This document shows, piece by piece, positions 822-7,655 of a stretch of DNA of 7,655 nucleotides; within the stretch, counting starts at the first letter, position 1, and the number at the start of each line of letters is the position of its first letter. The notes beneath the pieces are model-generated. The model was not told where the DNA came from, ran no database searches, and saw nothing but the letters and a program-made list of their open reading frames with translations. The DNA comes from an uncultured Flavobacteriales bacterium (GTDB lineage: Bacteria > Bacteroidota > Bacteroidia > Flavobacteriales > Vicingaceae), in assembly GCA_946886085.1 (NCBI GenBank), contig CAMPHX010000048.1:1-7655 (forward strand). The letters are read 5' to 3'. Both the position numbers and the translations under genes were made by a program.

Positions 822-1901
822 TTAGTAAAATTTTTCGTCTTTTTTAAGTTTGATGTCATTAACAAACTGTTTAATTTGTTGTTCGTCTTCTTTTTTACAC
901 ACCAACAGAATATTATCTGCTTCAACCACTATGTAGTCTTTTAATCCTTGCAGTACCACTAGTTTGTCTTTAGGAACATTAATAATGTTTCCTTCAGATT
1001 CGTATAACATTACATTTTTTCCAACAACAGCATTTTCACGTTCATCATGTGGTAAATGTGTATAAATAGAACCCCAAGTTCCTAAGTCTGACCAGCCGAT
1101 ATCAGCACTCATTACATATACATTTTTAGATTTCTCCATAATGCCGTAATCTATAGAAATGTTTTTGCATTGAGCATAAATAGACGTGATGGCTTTCACC
1201 TCTTCGGAAGTATTAAAAGCTGCTTTTTGTTCTTCAAAAAGTTGAGTTATGGTAGGTAAATGGCTTTCAAATGCTTTTTGAATACTTTTTAAATTCCAAA
1301 CAAACATGCCTGAATTCCATGTAAAATCGCCACTTTGAATAAATTCTTTGGCTAATTCTAAGTTTGGTTTTTCGGTAAATGTTTTTACTTTTTTTATTTC
1401 ATTGCCTTCTTCTTCAATAAACTGAATATAGCCATAACCGGTATCAGGTCGGGTAGGAGTAATACCCAAGGTTACTAAACAGTCGTTGTTTTCGGCATAG
1501 TTCAGAGCAATATTAGCCACTCTTAAAAACTCTTCTTCTTTAAGAATAAGATGATCGGCAGGAGCGACTAAAATAGTTGCATTTGGGTTTTGGGTAGCAA
1601 TTTTATAATTTGCATAAGCAATACAAGGAGCCGTATTTTTTCTGGAAGGTTCGCATAGTACTTGACTTTTGCTAATGCCTTTTAGTTGTTCTAATACTAA
1701 TGCTTCATAACTATCGTTGGTTACAATGTAAATGTTTTTTTCAGGACAAAGTTTTTTTAATCGGTTAAAGGTTTGTTGTAAAAGCGTTTCTCCGGTACCT
1801 AATATGTCTAAAAATTGTTTCGGACGAGCAGTTCTGCTCATAGGCCAAAATCGGCTTCCAATGCCGCCAGCCATAATTACACAATAGTTGTTTTTGTTCA
1901 T
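822..1901 (-). CDS. manC: Mannose-1-phosphate guanylyltransferase (GDP-mannose pyrophosphorylase), short form
   Basis: The enzyme makes GDP-mannose from mannose 1-phosphate and GTP in the cytoplasm, the activated sugar for mannose- and fucose-containing surface glycans. The nucleotidyltransferase signature is complete: AGGIGSRFWPMSR with PKQF (11-23, 27-30), EPSRKNTAP (84-92), the metal-site APADH (113-117), TGYGYI (154-159), FTEKP (175-179), WNSGMF (195-200), ISIDYGIMEK (248-257) and GWSDLGTW (269-276). At 359 residues it is the single-domain form: the C-terminal phosphomannose-isomerase cupin of the roughly 470-residue bifunctional enzymes is absent, which is common in Bacteroidota. The ATG at 1901-1899 is chosen because the conserved nucleotide-binding loop begins at residue 8-11, leaving no room for a later start. 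tatC follows after 18 bp. No promoter is recognisable upstream. Other sugar-nucleotide transferases are less likely given the WPMSR-PKQF pair. Confidence 0.96.
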   Translation of the reverse strand: MNKNNYCVIMAGGIGSRFWPMSRTARPKQFLDILGTGETLLQQTFNRLKKLCPEKNIYIVTNDSYEALVLEQLKGISKSQVLCEPSRKNTAPCIAYANYKIATQNPNATILVAPADHLILKEEEFLRVANIALNYAENNDCLVTLGITPTRPDTGYGYIQFIEEEGNEIKKVKTFTEKPNLELAKEFIQSGDFTWNSGMFVWNLKSIQKAFESHLPTITQLFEEQKAAFNTSEEVKAITSIYAQCKNISIDYGIMEKSKNVYVMSADIGWSDLGTWGSIYTHLPHDERENAVVGKNVMLYESEGNIINVPKDKLVVLQGLKDYIVVEADNILLVCKKEDEQQIKQFVNDIKLKKDEKFY

Positions 1902-2185
1902 TGAAAAATGAATTTAAGATGATTTTTAAAGGTGCTAAATTAGTAATTATTTGGATGCAATAGTTAGGTGCTTGAATGCAACTTGAATTAGAAGTAAATG
2001 GTGATGTTGTTAAAAACAATTACAATATTACTTGCTTGGTAAATTTGGGCGATTGAAGGAGGTATTATAAGTTTAATTCAAACTAACCACTAATTAGTTT
2101 TATTCTTTTTTATTAAATAGTGTGTTTACTCGATTTAAGGAACTTACTTACAGTCCCTCCATAAAACTTTGCGGGAGACAGGTAT
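1902..2185. other. Intergenic stretch upstream of manC, no gene seen
   Basis: About 280 bp of A/T-rich sequence separates manC from the lolD-derived fragment. No convincing coding frame, tRNA or exact TAnnTTTG promoter box was found on the minus strand, although manC transcription must start here or further upstream. An imperfect minus-strand hairpin pairs 2153-2159 with 2173-2179 (one mismatch, one G-U). It lies just past the stop codon of the lolD fragment and could be a decayed lolD terminator, but it has no T-tract. On this model the stretch is the original downstream flank of lolD. Confidence 0.5.
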
Positions 2186-2254
2186 TTACAAAGAGATTTT
2201 ACCGTCTTTCATTACTAACTTTCTATCCGCCATATTGGCTAATTCTTCGTTGTG
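2186..2254 (-). pseudogene. lolD: Orphan 3' fragment of lolD (last 22 codons plus stop)
   Basis: These 69 bases match the end of the intact lolD gene (5252-5320) in the same orientation with 65 of 69 identities. In the lolD frame they encode exactly the same 22 residues, from HNEELANM to KDGKISL, followed by TAA. The four differences are 2195/5261, 2204/5270, 2216/5282 and 2234/5300; each falls at a third codon position and is silent. Clear similarity stops at the His codon corresponding to residue 196 of LolD. Just upstream the fragment has an in-frame TAA (2260-2258), so it cannot be read from any longer frame, and it has no start context of its own. It is too short to be a functional ATPase and is best seen as the displaced or duplicated end of lolD. 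The match is read directly from the sequence; the origin is an inference. Confidence 0.9.
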
Positions 2255-2265
2255 TTGTTAACCTT

Positions 2266-2311
2266 ATTAAAATTTATATCCAACAACACTATGAAATATA
2301 GCGATTGTTGG
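2266..2311 (-). terminator. Hairpin terminator of the FG-GAP gene
   Basis: Reading the minus strand, CCAACAA (2311-2305) pairs with TTGTTGG (2286-2280), and an inner CGCTAT (2303-2298) pairs with ATAGTG (2292-2287) with one G-U pair. This gives a 13-bp stem with one bulged base (2304) and a 5-nt loop. It starts 11 bp past the FG-GAP stop codon and is followed by ATATAAATTTTAAT, which is A/T-rich but not a pure T-run. Position and stem support termination; the weak tail lowers confidence. Confidence 0.6.
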
Positions 2312-2322
2312 CAAATCGTTGT

Positions 2323-5109
2323 TTATCGCACGATTAATTTCTCTATAAATATTTTTTCACCAGTTTGATTATTCACTAAAAAGGTTAGAAATAAGCCTTT
2401 CCCAGTATCTCTTTTATCAATTATTACTTTGTTACCTGTAATTTTTCTTGCCCTTTTTACTTCTTTTCCAACTATATCATAAACCAATAAATCATACTCA
2501 CCAATTAAGCTTTTATCAAATAAAATGGTGGTGAACTCACTAAATGGATTAGGAAACACTACAGATTTTAATTGACTTATTTCTTCAATACCAACTGAAT
2601 TGTAAGTATAAGGTAATGAATGTTTTGGGCAATTATTTGTATCTAAGACTGTGACAGTATAATCACCATTAACCAAAGGAGTGTATGTAGCTGATGTTGC
2701 TCCAGCAATTAAAGTATCATTTAAATACCATTGATATGAATAATTGCCAGAGACACCTGATTCTAAATAAGGAAAGTTATAATTAATTATTGGCTGTGGT
2801 GTACCATAACATTCTATTGTATTTAAAACTATATTCGTAATTACGGCAGGGTTGTAATCAAAGTAAATATGACCTGCGTTATAAATTGGTGTATTTGGTG
2901 ATAAATTAGCTTTCGGTTTTATTGTAAACTTTACAAAACCTTGACTGCCTAAAAAATCCGTAGCACTATCAGGTAAGAAAATGTTCTCAAATTTAAAAAC
3001 AACCTCTCCGTTTTGTGCAATATGAACTTGAAAAGTATGACTACTTGCAATAGGGAATAAAGTATTCCAGTCCAAGTCAGCATCTAACTGATCTCTTACA
3101 GTAACTGTTATAGCAGTGTCATTACCTGTATTTTGGAAACGAATTAAATATTCTAATTCTTGGTTTTGAGCTATGTAACCCTCATTACCAATCCCTTTTG
3201 GCGTTACGCTTTTGTCATTGGGATCGTAAGCACAAACTAAAATTTGGTCTAAAGTATCTGTGTTTGAGTAAATAATGTTGCTACTACCTAAAGAATCTAA
3301 CTCATGCACCGTTAAAATTGAGGTTAAGGTGTCTCCCATACTAGTAAATGGAGGCATTTGTACCTGCAGGTTAATCATTTCTGAAGAGTAGAAAAACAAA
3401 CTGTCATAATGCCAATAGATGTTTTGATTAATAATAGAATCTGGGGTTACAGCAGCACTTATGTAGCTAATACTATCATCTAATTGTAAATGAATAACTC
3501 CATTTGGGGTTGTTGTTCCTATATTTTGAATATTGACCCAATAATTTGTGAATTGGTTACATCTTGGGAAACCTCCTGTTAGAGTAGGTCGAATTACTGT
3601 AATTAGAGTATCGGGATAGAATCCAAAATTTAAACTATCAATTAGATTATTAGTACTAGATAAAGTTCTTGTGTAAGAGGATGAATCTGTAGTTAAATTC
3701 CAATATTGAAGAGGATTGTGGGTAAGATTGTATGTCCCGCTATCAACGGCAAAAAAATATGATCCATCAATATAAGAATAGCTAGTTATCCCGCTTGGTA
3801 TAAGGTTTAGAAGAGTGTTTGAAAATCCAAATTCGATGCTATCTTTAATTTTATTTTGATTACTATCGAAAAACACATTACCTTTCATTGTATATCCTCC
3901 TTGATTGTGGATGAAATTTTCAAGAATACCGAGATGATTGTACCCCGAAAAAGTTGATATTCTTCTCCAAATTAGATCTTGATCACCATCAAGATCAAAG
4001 TCTTTAGCGTCTAAATCAAATCCACCATCAAATCCAGAAGGAGCAGTATATAAAGTGCTTTTAGGTAAAAATCCACCAGAACCATTATTTTGATAAAAAG
4101 AGATGTTAGCCCTGTTGCCATCAATGGTTAAAATATCGATATCTCCATCTATATCTATATCGAGACATATTAAGTTTCTTGTTGGGTAAACATGGTTAAA
4201 GGTGATACTGTCAATATTATTGTAAGTAAAGTTTCCTCCTCCGTTTCCAATAAATGTACAAATACTCGCCCAAGAAGTAGTATTAGGAATAGTCCATCCT
4301 GATTCAATAAAAAACGTAATATCCTTTTTTCCATCATTATTTAAATCGGAAAAAGTTAAATCATATGCCTTATTGTCAATAAATGTGGCTAACAGAACAC
4401 CAGCAGAAAAATTGAGATTACCTAAATTTTCATAAAAATAAATTTCAGTATTACTGGATCTAAACAGAACCACAAAAATATCTACATCACCATCATTATC
4501 AATATCGTTCGGGTAAGGTGTTTTTGGTAATCCATTACCAAGTGCAATCATACTAATCAATAAGTTTGGACCTGAAAACACTCCGCCAGATGTATTTTCA
4601 TACCAATTTATTCCTTGGTTTGAAGCAAATCCCAAACCATTCACAATATCCATATCACCATCTCCATCTATATCAAACATTTCTATTGGGTCAGAATCAA
4701 AATCAATAACTACATTGCTAATAACCTGTGCTGTATCAAAATCATTAAGTGTATTATTTCTGTACCAAAAAACATTTTTTTTCCCACGAACCAATAAATC
4801 ATCCCATCCATCGGAGTCAACATCAACCCCAAATGATTGTACTGCTCTGTCAACAGTAGATAGGGATAAATAGAATGTTGGAATGGAAAATGAAGAGTCA
4901 ATCTCTCCAATTCCATTATTAATGTATATTTCTGCCGAATAAGTACCAATCCATGCAACGTCTAAATCTCCATCATGATCATAATCGAGAGTGGTATAAG
5001 ATACAATTGCTGGTGAATTGCTATACAAAACTGGATTACCAAATTGGGCTTTAATAGTAGTTGTAAAGAATAAAAATATAAGAGGTAAAACGAGTATCAG
5101 TTTTTTCAT
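2323..5109 (-). CDS. T9SS-exported FG-GAP/VCBS propeller protein with DUF7619-like and Ig-like domains
   Basis: This 928-residue secreted protein has an unknown ligand or substrate. A Sec signal peptide (about 1-21, ending IKAQ) leads into seven calcium-type DxDxDG motifs at residues 42, 96, 146, 202, 255, 317 and 370. Their spacing of 50-62 residues fits a seven-bladed integrin-like propeller. A CnaB/SdrD-like segment follows (about 408-497, GNVFFDSNQNKIKD). Residues 626-765 (from CAYDPNDKSVTP to FDYNPAVITN) resemble the DUF7619 module common in Bacteroidota secreted proteins. An Ig-like stretch (about 770-835, YSYQWYLNDT) precedes a T9SS type A tail (about 845-928: FPNPF, LLVYDIVGKEV, final KLIVR). 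The tail should direct outer-membrane passage through T9SS and surface attachment or release. The ATG at 5109-5107 is followed at once by MKKLILVLP. The gene stands alone between two copies of the lolD end. Adhesion or extracellular-polymer binding is a family-level guess; no catalytic domain is evident. Confidence 0.9.
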   Translation of the reverse strand: MKKLILVLPLIFLFFTTTIKAQFGNPVLYSNSPAIVSYTTLDYDHDGDLDVAWIGTYSAEIYINNGIGEIDSSFSIPTFYLSLSTVDRAVQSFGVDVDSDGWDDLLVRGKKNVFWYRNNTLNDFDTAQVISNVVIDFDSDPIEMFDIDGDGDMDIVNGLGFASNQGINWYENTSGGVFSGPNLLISMIALGNGLPKTPYPNDIDNDGDVDIFVVLFRSSNTEIYFYENLGNLNFSAGVLLATFIDNKAYDLTFSDLNNDGKKDITFFIESGWTIPNTTSWASICTFIGNGGGNFTYNNIDSITFNHVYPTRNLICLDIDIDGDIDILTIDGNRANISFYQNNGSGGFLPKSTLYTAPSGFDGGFDLDAKDFDLDGDQDLIWRRISTFSGYNHLGILENFIHNQGGYTMKGNVFFDSNQNKIKDSIEFGFSNTLLNLIPSGITSYSYIDGSYFFAVDSGTYNLTHNPLQYWNLTTDSSSYTRTLSSTNNLIDSLNFGFYPDTLITVIRPTLTGGFPRCNQFTNYWVNIQNIGTTTPNGVIHLQLDDSISYISAAVTPDSIINQNIYWHYDSLFFYSSEMINLQVQMPPFTSMGDTLTSILTVHELDSLGSSNIIYSNTDTLDQILVCAYDPNDKSVTPKGIGNEGYIAQNQELEYLIRFQNTGNDTAITVTVRDQLDADLDWNTLFPIASSHTFQVHIAQNGEVVFKFENIFLPDSATDFLGSQGFVKFTIKPKANLSPNTPIYNAGHIYFDYNPAVITNIVLNTIECYGTPQPIINYNFPYLESGVSGNYSYQWYLNDTLIAGATSATYTPLVNGDYTVTVLDTNNCPKHSLPYTYNSVGIEEISQLKSVVFPNPFSEFTTILFDKSLIGEYDLLVYDIVGKEVKRARKITGNKVIIDKRDTGKGLFLTFLVNNQTGEKIFIEKLIVR

Positions 5110-5148
5110 GATGTTTAATTATTACTGTTTTTATATCTGCTATGTTTG

Positions 5149-5156
5149 CAAACTTA
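5149..5156 (-). promoter_or_regulatory. Promoter-like -7 box (TAAGTTTG) upstream of the FG-GAP gene
   Basis: The minus strand reads TAAGTTTG, an exact fit to the Bacteroidota primary-sigma -7 consensus TAnnTTTG, 39 bp before the ATG at 5109. No TTG or TTTG stands at the expected -33 distance (about 17-19 bp upstream), so only half the promoter is supported. The palindrome at 5158-5193 occupies the place where the -33 contact should be. Confidence 0.4.
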
Positions 5157-5157
5157 T

Positions 5158-5193
5158 ATAGGTCTGATAAAATAAAAAACCTGTCAGACTTAT
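5158..5193. repeat. Inverted repeat next to the -7 box, possible operator
   Basis: GTCTGA (5162-5167) pairs with TCAGAC (5184-5189), and the arms extend outward through a G-T and three A-T pairs to 5158 and 5193, around a 16-nt loop. It lies immediately upstream of the putative FG-GAP -7 box on the minus strand. Only on the plus strand does a T-rich run follow the stem, and no plus-strand gene ends here, so a terminator role is unlikely. A regulator-binding site is possible but unproven. Confidence 0.4.
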
Positions 5194-5217
5194 TTTTTAT
5201 CAAATGTATAAAAAATA
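5191..5217. repeat. Perfect A/T inverted repeat downstream of lolD
   Basis: TATTTTTTAT (5191-5200) and ATAAAAAATA (5208-5217) form a perfect 10-bp inverted repeat around the 7-nt loop CAAATGT. It starts 34 bp beyond the lolD stop, so it could serve as a weak lolD terminator. All-A/T stems are poor hairpins and can arise by chance in this composition. It overlaps the neighbouring GTCTGA/TCAGAC palindrome by three bases. Confidence 0.35.
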
Positions 5218-5251
5218 GCTTACAAAATCAGTAAAATAGGTTTTAAGTTGC

Positions 5252-5905
5252 TTACAAAGAAATTTTACCATCTTTCATTACCAACTTTCTATCCGCCATG
5301 TTGGCTAATTCTTCGTTGTGGGTAACAATTACAAACGTTTGGTTGGTTTTATCTCTTAAATCAAAAAATAATTGATGTAAATCTTTAGCAGAAACAGAGT
5401 CTAAATTCCCTGAAGGTTCGTCTGCTAATACCACAGCAGGGCTATTAATTAACGCTCTGCAAACGGCTACTCGTTGCTGTTCTCCCCCAGAAAGTTCTGA
5501 AGGTTTGTGATGCATTCTTGCGGTAAGCCCTAATAAATCGAGTAACTCAATGGCTTTTTTTTCTGCTTCAGCTTTGGGAGTGCGGTTAATAAATGCTGGA
5601 ATACAAACATTTTCTAAGGCTGTAAATTCAGGTAGTAAATGGTGAAATTGAAAAACAAAACCGATGTGTTTATTTCTAAAAGTAGAAAGTTTTTTATCTG
5701 AAAGTACGGCTACATTCTCATCATTGATAATTATTTTTCCTTCATCGGCTCTATCTAAGGTTCCCATAAGGTGTAATAAAGTGGACTTTCCTGCTCCGGA
5801 AGAACCCACAATAGAAACTATTTCTCCTTTTTTTATGGATAAATCTACGCCTTTAAGTACTTTAAGGTCGCCATAACTTTTGTGAAGGTTTTCAATAACT
5901 ATCAT
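5252..5905 (-). CDS. lolD: LolD-type ABC transporter ATP-binding protein
   Basis: This is the cytoplasmic ATPase of the MacB/LolD (lipoprotein-release) ABC class. In the Lol system it powers extraction of lipoproteins from the inner membrane by LolC/LolE-type permeases. All nucleotide-binding elements are intact: Walker A GSSGAGKS (34-41), Q-loop Q86, signature LSGGEQ (138-143), Walker B VVLADE (158-163) with catalytic E163, the D-loop after SGNLD (165-169), and switch H196 in VTHNEE. The segment [16 protein letters not shown] (85-100) is typical of LolD. The length of 217 residues is normal for the family. The ATG at 5905-5903 lies 9 bp after the stop of the upstream outer-membrane-type gene, so the two are probably co-transcribed. 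No permease gene is in view. Its last 69 bases are repeated at 2186-2254 beyond the next gene. A related MacB or FtsE assignment is possible, but LolD fits best. Confidence 0.92.
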
Positions 5906-6783: not shown

Positions 6784-7655
6784 TTATTTTAAGAACTTGC
6801 TGTTGAATTTCGCATCATTGTTATAGATATTGATGAAATAAATTCCTTTAGCATTTTCATTAAAAGGAACTGTAATAATTCCTTCATTGTTACTGATATT
6901 TAATTTAGTTGAAATTACTAACTGACCTAAAGAATTTAAAATATTTAAATTATAAGTCCCTTGATCAATGTTTGCATAGCTAATGTTAATGTTGTTATTG
7001 ATGTTATCAAAATAAGTAACTATTGATTTTCCATTGTTTAAATCATCAATGCTATTACAAATATCTATTACAATAGAGCCATTATGGGTATCTGTTCCAC
7101 ATGAGTTAGAAATTACTACTGCAAAATTGTGTGTTCCGGCAACACCAAAACTTACTAATGGGTTAGCTATTGTTGACGAACTCATTGAAGGACTTCCTTG
7201 AGGGAATGACCAGTTGTAAGAAGTAGCACCTACTGAACTTGAAGCATCAAACTGAACATTCATGTTTTCACAAATATTACTGTTTGGTGTATAAGTAACT
7301 ACAGCAGATGGTGCTTGGTTTACAGTAATGGTTATTTGGTCAGTATTAGAACAACTTCCGGTAGTACCTGTAACGGTATAAGTTGTGGTAGTTGAAGGAG
7401 TAAAAGCAACTCCATCAGTTACACCATTATCCCAAGTGTAAGAAGAAGCATTGCCACTTCCGGTTAAGGTAACAGGATCGCCAGCACAAATAGTTGTTGC
7501 TGTAGCATTTGCTGTTACAGTTGGGGCAGGAGTTACAGTAATGGTTATTTGATCTGTGTTAGAACAACTTCCGGTAGTACCCGTAACGGTATAAGTAGTA
7601 GTAGTTGAAGGAGTAAAAGCAACTCCATCAGTTACACCATTATCCCAAGTGTAAG
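6784..7655 (-). CDS. T9SS-exported protein with tandem Ig/PKD-like repeats (5' end cut by window edge)
   Basis: The frame is open from the right edge to the stop at 6786-6784, giving 289 visible residues. The ATG at 7263 is internal, because the coding frame continues upstream of it without a stop. Visible residues 1-112 hold Thr-rich beta-sandwich repeats of 71 residues, each with YTWDNGVTDG and YTVTGTTGSCSNTDQITI, and an ICAGDPVTLTGSG stretch between them. A PKD-type domain follows (about 113-205: VQFDASSS, SYNWSFPQGSP, GTHNFAVVISNSCG). The end is a T9SS type A sorting domain (about 206-289: GTYNLNILNSLGQLV, GIYFINIYNN, final KFLK), without the usual PNP motif. The family consists of large cell-surface or secreted proteins, often adhesins or carriers of N-terminal enzymes. 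The N-terminal function lies outside the window. Paired cysteines in the repeats could form disulfides. Confidence 0.9.
   Translation of the reverse strand, partial: YTWDNGVTDGVAFTPSTTTTYTVTGTTGSCSNTDQITITVTPAPTVTANATATTICAGDPVTLTGSGNASSYTWDNGVTDGVAFTPSTTTTYTVTGTTGSCSNTDQITITVNQAPSAVVTYTPNSNICENMNVQFDASSSVGATSYNWSFPQGSPSMSSSTIANPLVSFGVAGTHNFAVVISNSCGTDTHNGSIVIDICNSIDDLNNGKSIVTYFDNINNNINISYANIDQGTYNLNILNSLGQLVISTKLNISNNEGIITVPFNENAKGIYFINIYNNDAKFNSKFLK
7320..7655 (-). repeat. Tandem 213-bp coding repeat (71 residues), second copy cut by window edge
   Basis: The 123 bases 7320-7442 recur at 7533-7655, an offset of 213 bp or exactly 71 codons, with six mismatches. The repeat stays in frame inside the T9SS-exported protein gene. 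The high nucleotide identity points to recent duplication or continued homogenisation. More copies may lie beyond the right edge. Confidence 0.9.

Follow-up and report, generated by a model that had tools for sequence, protein, structure and literature searches.

In the sections of the cited papers available to us, integron cassettes without an integrase are termed CALIN and single attC sites SALIN (PMC12690207), and CALIN cassettes are described as still movable by integrases acting in trans (PMC9668308). Single cassettes at chromosomal places outside an integron are known as attG insertions (Loot et al. 2024, via PMC12901181). Integrons are most prevalent in Proteobacteria; Bacteroidota are among the phyla that have them, and 10–30% of cassettes carry signal peptides (PMC8618304). 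As far as its available sections go, the IntegronFinder 2.0 paper names one complete integron in Bacteroidetes proper, that of Salinibacter ruber (PMC9024848). Searches on integrons or attC sites together with type IX secretion (T9SS) or Vicingaceae, which took in titles and abstract openings from few subscription journals and no preprints, returned no T9SS cassettes.

We analysed a stretch of 7,655 nucleotides (the window) from an uncultured member of the Vicingaceae, together with the 46 genomes grouped around G002 and G012, here called the family; the order-level set comprises the same 46 genomes. As in CALIN and SALIN, an ORF is followed by an attC-like site, the junction is probably G|TT and arrays lie on the same strand, and no integrase gene stands beside the arrays examined, except for an unrelated-looking recombinase in G020 (C139). 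Unlike in CALIN and SALIN, there is no IntI over the cut-off in the family, the cargo is large (up to 1398 aa) and often has T9SS tails, and the AT-rich site family was found, among a class-wide sample, in this family only. The single cassettes at chromosomal places outside an integron resemble attG insertions; unlike those in the available sections of PMC12901181, one locus has here been used with different cargo, in G012, G013 and the window.

By ORFs and Pfam matches the window holds tatC, manC, the gene of an FG-GAP/DUF7619 protein, lolD, a 254-aa gene and a PKD protein. The 254-aa gene has no Pfam match, and the T9SS-tail match of the PKD protein is slightly below the cut-off. The coding region of the latter (6784–7655) contains 159-nt tandem-type direct repeats, 213 apart and 86% identical, which continue in the copies of relatives. 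A sequence-only reading of this DNA had annotated lolD, the FG-GAP gene, manC and tatC in agreement with the present assignments (Table 1) and had described a duplicated 69-bp lolD end. The duplication is real: 2186–2254 repeats 5252–5320 directly over 69 nt with 94% identity and a spacing of 3066, ending at the lolD stop and bracketing one gene. The copies differ at four sites, each synonymous in the lolD frame. The length needs correction, in that 60 nt of the far copy are lolD alone, because the adjoining nine fit an attC arm equally well. The absence of a recombinase between the repeats was also correctly seen, the FG-GAP/T9SS gene being the sole gene there. We consider it likely that this gene is an integron-type cassette inserted beside lolD, and that a later or concurrent illegitimate recombination left the lolD duplicate.

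Table 1. Features of the cassette locus in the window.
Feature	Position	Strand	Evidence
Intact lolD	5252–5905	-	ORF and Pfam ABC_tran
lolD 3′ flank, resident, common to G013 up to the cassette junction	5153–5251		blastn match to G013 beginning at 5155
Cassette 5′ core G|TTTGCAAACAT, with the crossover at 5153|5152	5142–5153	-	One base off GTTGGCAAACAT
Cargo gene; its 928-aa product has FG-GAP repeats, DUF7619 and a T9SS sorting tail	2323–5109	-	ORF, Pfam
Truncated attC-like site, R″ TTTGCCAAC at 2307–2315, R′ box missing	2246–2320	-	R1 match 2223–2320
CACAACGAA, common to attC arm and lolD (the join)	2246–2254	-	Sequence comparison
lolD 3′ end fragment past the shared stretch	2186–2245	-	Repeat comparison
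177 bp between lolD fragment and manC-side flank	2009–2185		Only short matches (23–41 nt), in 4 of 46 family genomes
manC-side flank, resident	1902–2008		Homologous in G012 and G013 as far as 2008
manC, far neighbour of the insertion site	822–1901	-	ORF, Pfam

A lolD scan of genome contigs gave 570 confirmed loci, 80 of which were listed, and two of these led to the family. The 80 listed loci had almost no neighbours in common in a first synteny check, because they are distant. Within the family lolD is 96–97% identical in G012, G013 and G017, which by this value and a DNA identity of 86–94% are defined as close relatives. As in the window, manC and tatC lie beyond lolD in G012 and G013, with a DNA identity of 94% up to window position 2008 and of 92% from 5155 (G013) or 5189 (G012) on. 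The FG-GAP gene and the second lolD end are missing from both genomes. Their lolD–manC interval holds other ORFs: one of 146 aa in G012 and, in G013, one of 218 aa that begins with GTG and has an N-terminus like that of a signal peptide. Downstream of lolD in G017 are two cassettes (ORFs of 183 and then 103 + 156 aa), with no manC within 19 kb; the only match of this genome to the FG-GAP protein spans 127 residues of the C-terminal part at 27% identity. A search of six genomes with window 2009–2330 found lolD in G012, G013 and G017 and no other match that took in more than 38 nt of the lolD part.

The earlier reading had suggested looking in relatives for an empty site, or for other cargo with a second lolD end. 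Other cargo is indeed present between lolD and manC in G012 and G013, without a second lolD end, and no empty site was found, the G017 test being no better than shuffles. The finding that would have spoken against its proposal, namely gene and fragment in all relatives, was not obtained: 0 of 3 close relatives (G012, G013, G017) carry either of the two. Other genes occupy the place, in keeping with the single-gene acquisition that had been proposed.

The inserted unit starts at G|TT (5153|5152), and so does the different cassette of G013; the lolD-side breakpoint is the same in both. The cassette 5′ end, GTTTGCAAACAT, sits where the homology to G013 stops. On the manC side the half-site CCG|TTGAA[AG]G is common to G012 and G013, and the lolD-side junction of G013 reads ATAAG|TTGG. 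An identical crossover is shown only pairwise, because the lolD-side flank of G012 diverges before the junction. The box at 5149–5156 that had been noticed as promoter-like reads TAAGTTTG on the minus strand, in line with the −7 consensus of Bacteroidetes promoters. The G|TT junction falls within it, TAAG being resident and TTTG belonging to the cassette. The promoter of the cargo may have been built by the insertion itself.

At the era locus, a 796/797-aa T9SS-type cassette with an attC-like site is present in G013 and G017 (L197, L166), and in G012 (L213) the place is taken by different ORFs, one that by eye looks like a DNA methyltransferase and a further one. The locus adjoins what by eye looks like a tRNA gene. 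It was rejected as a second clean case, the 5′ boundary showing no clear G|TT.

An attC-like site, truncated in its 3′ arm, follows the FG-GAP gene 2 nt past the stop. It is matched at 2223–2320 on the minus strand (56.7 bits, E 6.7e-9) by R1, a covariance model built here from 15 G020 sites and the G013 site and not a published attC model; the window site was outside the training set. The hairpin at 2266–2311, previously regarded as terminator-like, is present and belongs to this site. The search with window 2009–2330 matched many repeats in G020, which in cassette orientation open with R″, in many cases TTTGCCAAC, followed by an inverted repeat with imperfections and, in most of them, by CG|TT, past which the sequence varies. 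No Rfam match at gathering score was obtained in the window, L115, L116 or L117.

At E 0.01 or lower, R1 matches were found in 16 of the 46 family genomes: 46 in G020, 12 in G001, 10 in G002 and one to four in each of the other 13. Class-wide sampling gave matches in 2 of 295 genomes, both from the family, in a search that was less sensitive because 14 candidates per genome were taken vs 91 in the family search. In G012 no R1 match was obtained, and the attC-like site at the end of its cassette is of another, longer type. Among 15 loci viewed in ten non-G020 genomes, 13 have a single R1 site and two have two sites. On the bottom strand, good folding was obtained for the intact site L150:9629–9729 (z −4.6) and weaker folding for the window site (z −2.7), and the G013 site did not surpass shuffled sequences (z −0.5). 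The sites of G012 and the first of the two in G017 also fold well; the second one in G017 does not surpass its shuffles. Covariation in the R1 alignment is slight: of the 10 pairs that it supports, 3 vary at both positions. In G030, an ORF resembling by eye a REP-associated tyrosine transposase (L188:5690–6304) lies about 0.7 kb from an attC-like site.

The 52 R1 matches on the loci retrieved, a subset of the family matches, were used to relate sites to genes, five being left out for short upstream sequence. A same-strand ORF stop lies −15 to 75 nt upstream of 39 of the 47 sites, against 6.8% of random positions, and a convergent ORF at the other side of six of 47. The core test took 36 of the 39 sites with an ORF. 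The 120 nt preceding the ORF contained the cassette's own core (the 9-mer predicted from its R″) in 13 of 36 cassettes, compared with 2 of 406 trials in which clearly different cores of other cassettes were sought at the same place; no exact own core was found in 23 of 36, the window included. The window core GTTTGCAAA is one base off the GTTGGCAAA predicted from its own R″ and was therefore not counted as exact; GTTTGCAAACAT is likewise one base off GTTGGCAAACAT, which was counted 17 times in 16 G020 loci. As nine of the 13 positives have the common core GTTGGCAAA, the cassette-specific evidence rests on the other four (GTTGGCAAC, GTTAGCCAA, GTTGTAGGT and GTTGGCTAT). A looser, earlier core score, from which 4 of 50 attC matches without a readable R″ were left out, gave little separation (own 4.3 vs control 3.8 of 9).

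Same-strand arrays occur at the G020 loci and as the two-cassette array of G017; the window has one cassette. The ORFs between the G020 sites mostly lie on one strand and reach 1398 aa, and many of them begin in the manner of a signal peptide. Some gaps in these arrays have no site and some ORFs lie on the opposite strand. A cassette pool is present family-wide.

The T9SS tail PF18962 was found in 17 of 39 cassette proteins, the window's included (10 of 10 in an earlier hand-picked subset of the 39). FG-GAP_3 is present in three and DUF7619 in two of the 39, with the window protein counted in each, and a crude script called signal peptides in 28. The same set contains one ParE match and one match to PF00144 (Beta-lactamase in Pfam). 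Homologues of the FG-GAP protein at E 1e-60 or lower occur at nine loci in 7 of the 46 family genomes, none of them in G012, G013 or G017. The nine loci have no R1 match below E 0.1, and no attC was seen after the genes. The FG-GAP gene was therefore rejected as a cassette gene family-wide; judged from these homologues, it would be a gene captured once by a pool in which secreted proteins abound, and not always cassette-borne. The cargo protein (P0001) has one metagenome source with 5 member sequences, the longest contig being 3099 bases, close to the 3066-base repeat period.

We tentatively propose, as a possibility less likely than not, an integron-like system peculiar to this lineage: within one Bacteroidota family it would shuffle large surface proteins exported by the T9SS, each as a single-gene cassette, in arrays and at scattered places on the chromosome, by a recombinase that is not a recognisable IntI. 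If true, a cassette pool rich in large T9SS-secreted proteins would allow a Bacteroidota lineage to swap cell-surface parts in single steps, and standard models may miss the attC family of this pool.

Homology-facilitated illegitimate recombination joins non-homologous sequences at a short shared stretch beside homologous DNA. The far end of the cassette likewise shows a join at a short shared stretch, the anchor and the donor being putative. The attC arm is identical between the window and L150 over 14 nt up to the join (AACAACACAACGAA), past which L150 continues with AACATAGCG and the window with GAATTAGCC, which is lolD. A 9-nt match between attC and lolD is expected by chance (193 of 500 shuffled lolD sequences); it is its position at the join that counts. 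Because the attC 3′ arm reaches CACAACGAA and then continues as lolD, the duplicated lolD end is probably a microhomology scar at a damaged attC and no attachment duplicate. The lolD part stops at the stop codon, the 177 bp come next and the resident manC flank resumes at AACATCACC, about 40 bp of it being lost. No source of the 177 bp was found in the 46 family genomes or in the separate six-genome search. A phage collection searched with 2186–2311 and a plasmid collection searched with 1902–2330 gave no match. Polarised against G012 and G013, the four differences divide evenly into two changes in the fragment and two in lolD. A Leu codon is common to fragment and intact lolD and absent from the three relatives. 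This would fit recombination with one homologous and one microhomologous end that brought in a lolD end of the same species or of a closely related sister.

According to this model, the FG-GAP/T9SS cassette would have entered downstream of lolD by G|TT site-specific recombination of its attC with a chromosomal attG-like site, through an integrase acting in trans or since lost. With the insertion or afterwards, illegitimate recombination at the shared 9 nt would have fused the 3′ arm of the attC with the 3′ end of a lolD. The R′ box would thereby have been deleted, together with about 40 bp of flank on the manC side, and the lolD duplicate left behind; the donor would be a diverged allele of the same species or a sister lineage. 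Having lost this box, the cassette is probably locked in place. Of the earlier suggestions, exchange by recombination at lolD is kept as the likely origin of the scar and not as the attachment mechanism.

The same cassette could have received its lolD end by local duplication or slippage within one genome, not from another allele. The same 9-nt join would arise, and the Leu codon common to both copies speaks for it; we nevertheless hold it to be the lesser possibility, as all four differences are synonymous and two are derived in the fragment, which suggests a recently coding allele (two changes being weak), and the 3′ flank of lolD does not follow the fragment. An assembly chimera at 2186–2254 would account for the 177 bp beside the fragment matching no source (46 family genomes, short matches only), but the fragment is a 94% allele and not a copy of the window's lolD, which makes a chimera highly improbable.

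The attC-like sites themselves might be terminator or REP-like hairpin repeats placed after genes, the gene having been acquired by ordinary recombination. Their position directly after ORFs (39 of 47), the want of an integron integrase over the cut-off in 46 genomes and the one site near the transposase-like ORF of L188, identified by eye, agree with this. It is nonetheless unlikely given the cassette-specific 5′ cores (13/36 vs 2/406, four of them other than the common core), the CG|TT end past which the sequence varies and the breakpoints of the relatives at the G|TT position. Least credible, along with the chimera, is an integrative element that targets the lolD 3′ end and has the 69-bp repeat as its attachment sites, as the sequence-only reading had it. 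In its favour are the direct orientation of the repeat, the one gene between the copies and the coincidence of its end with the lolD stop, but the lolD-side breakpoint lies 99 nt beyond that stop, and the far boundary is the attC-like site adjoining the FG-GAP stop, not the lolD fragment. Instead of identical att repeats there are copies of 94% identity with four differences, and instead of a recombinase the single FG-GAP/T9SS gene. No repeat exists at G012 or G013, and G013 has a cassette between G|TT and attC, with the same lolD-side breakpoint, without a lolD duplicate.

IntI was found over the TIGR02249 cut-off in 0 of the 46 family genomes, the window's own genome being outside the 46, and none of these thus showed a complete integron (intI with attI). 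Matches below the cut-off occurred in all 46 genomes and in all 14 controls, which hold no positive case because none of the 14 is over the cut-off. The strongest matches are mostly proteins of about 360–416 aa that skip profile positions ~180–240, presumably the location of the IntI-specific domain, and five recombinases of this strongest type, viewed closely, were on contigs without an R1 match. The best-scoring tyrosine recombinases were rejected as the integrase: with E 1e-27 or lower in 10 of 16 attC-positive and 20 of 30 attC-negative genomes, they show no association with attC. A 291-aa tyrosine recombinase on C139 of G020, about 3.3 kb from an R1 site and adjoining an ORF that by eye resembles an IS transposase, is a candidate integrase.
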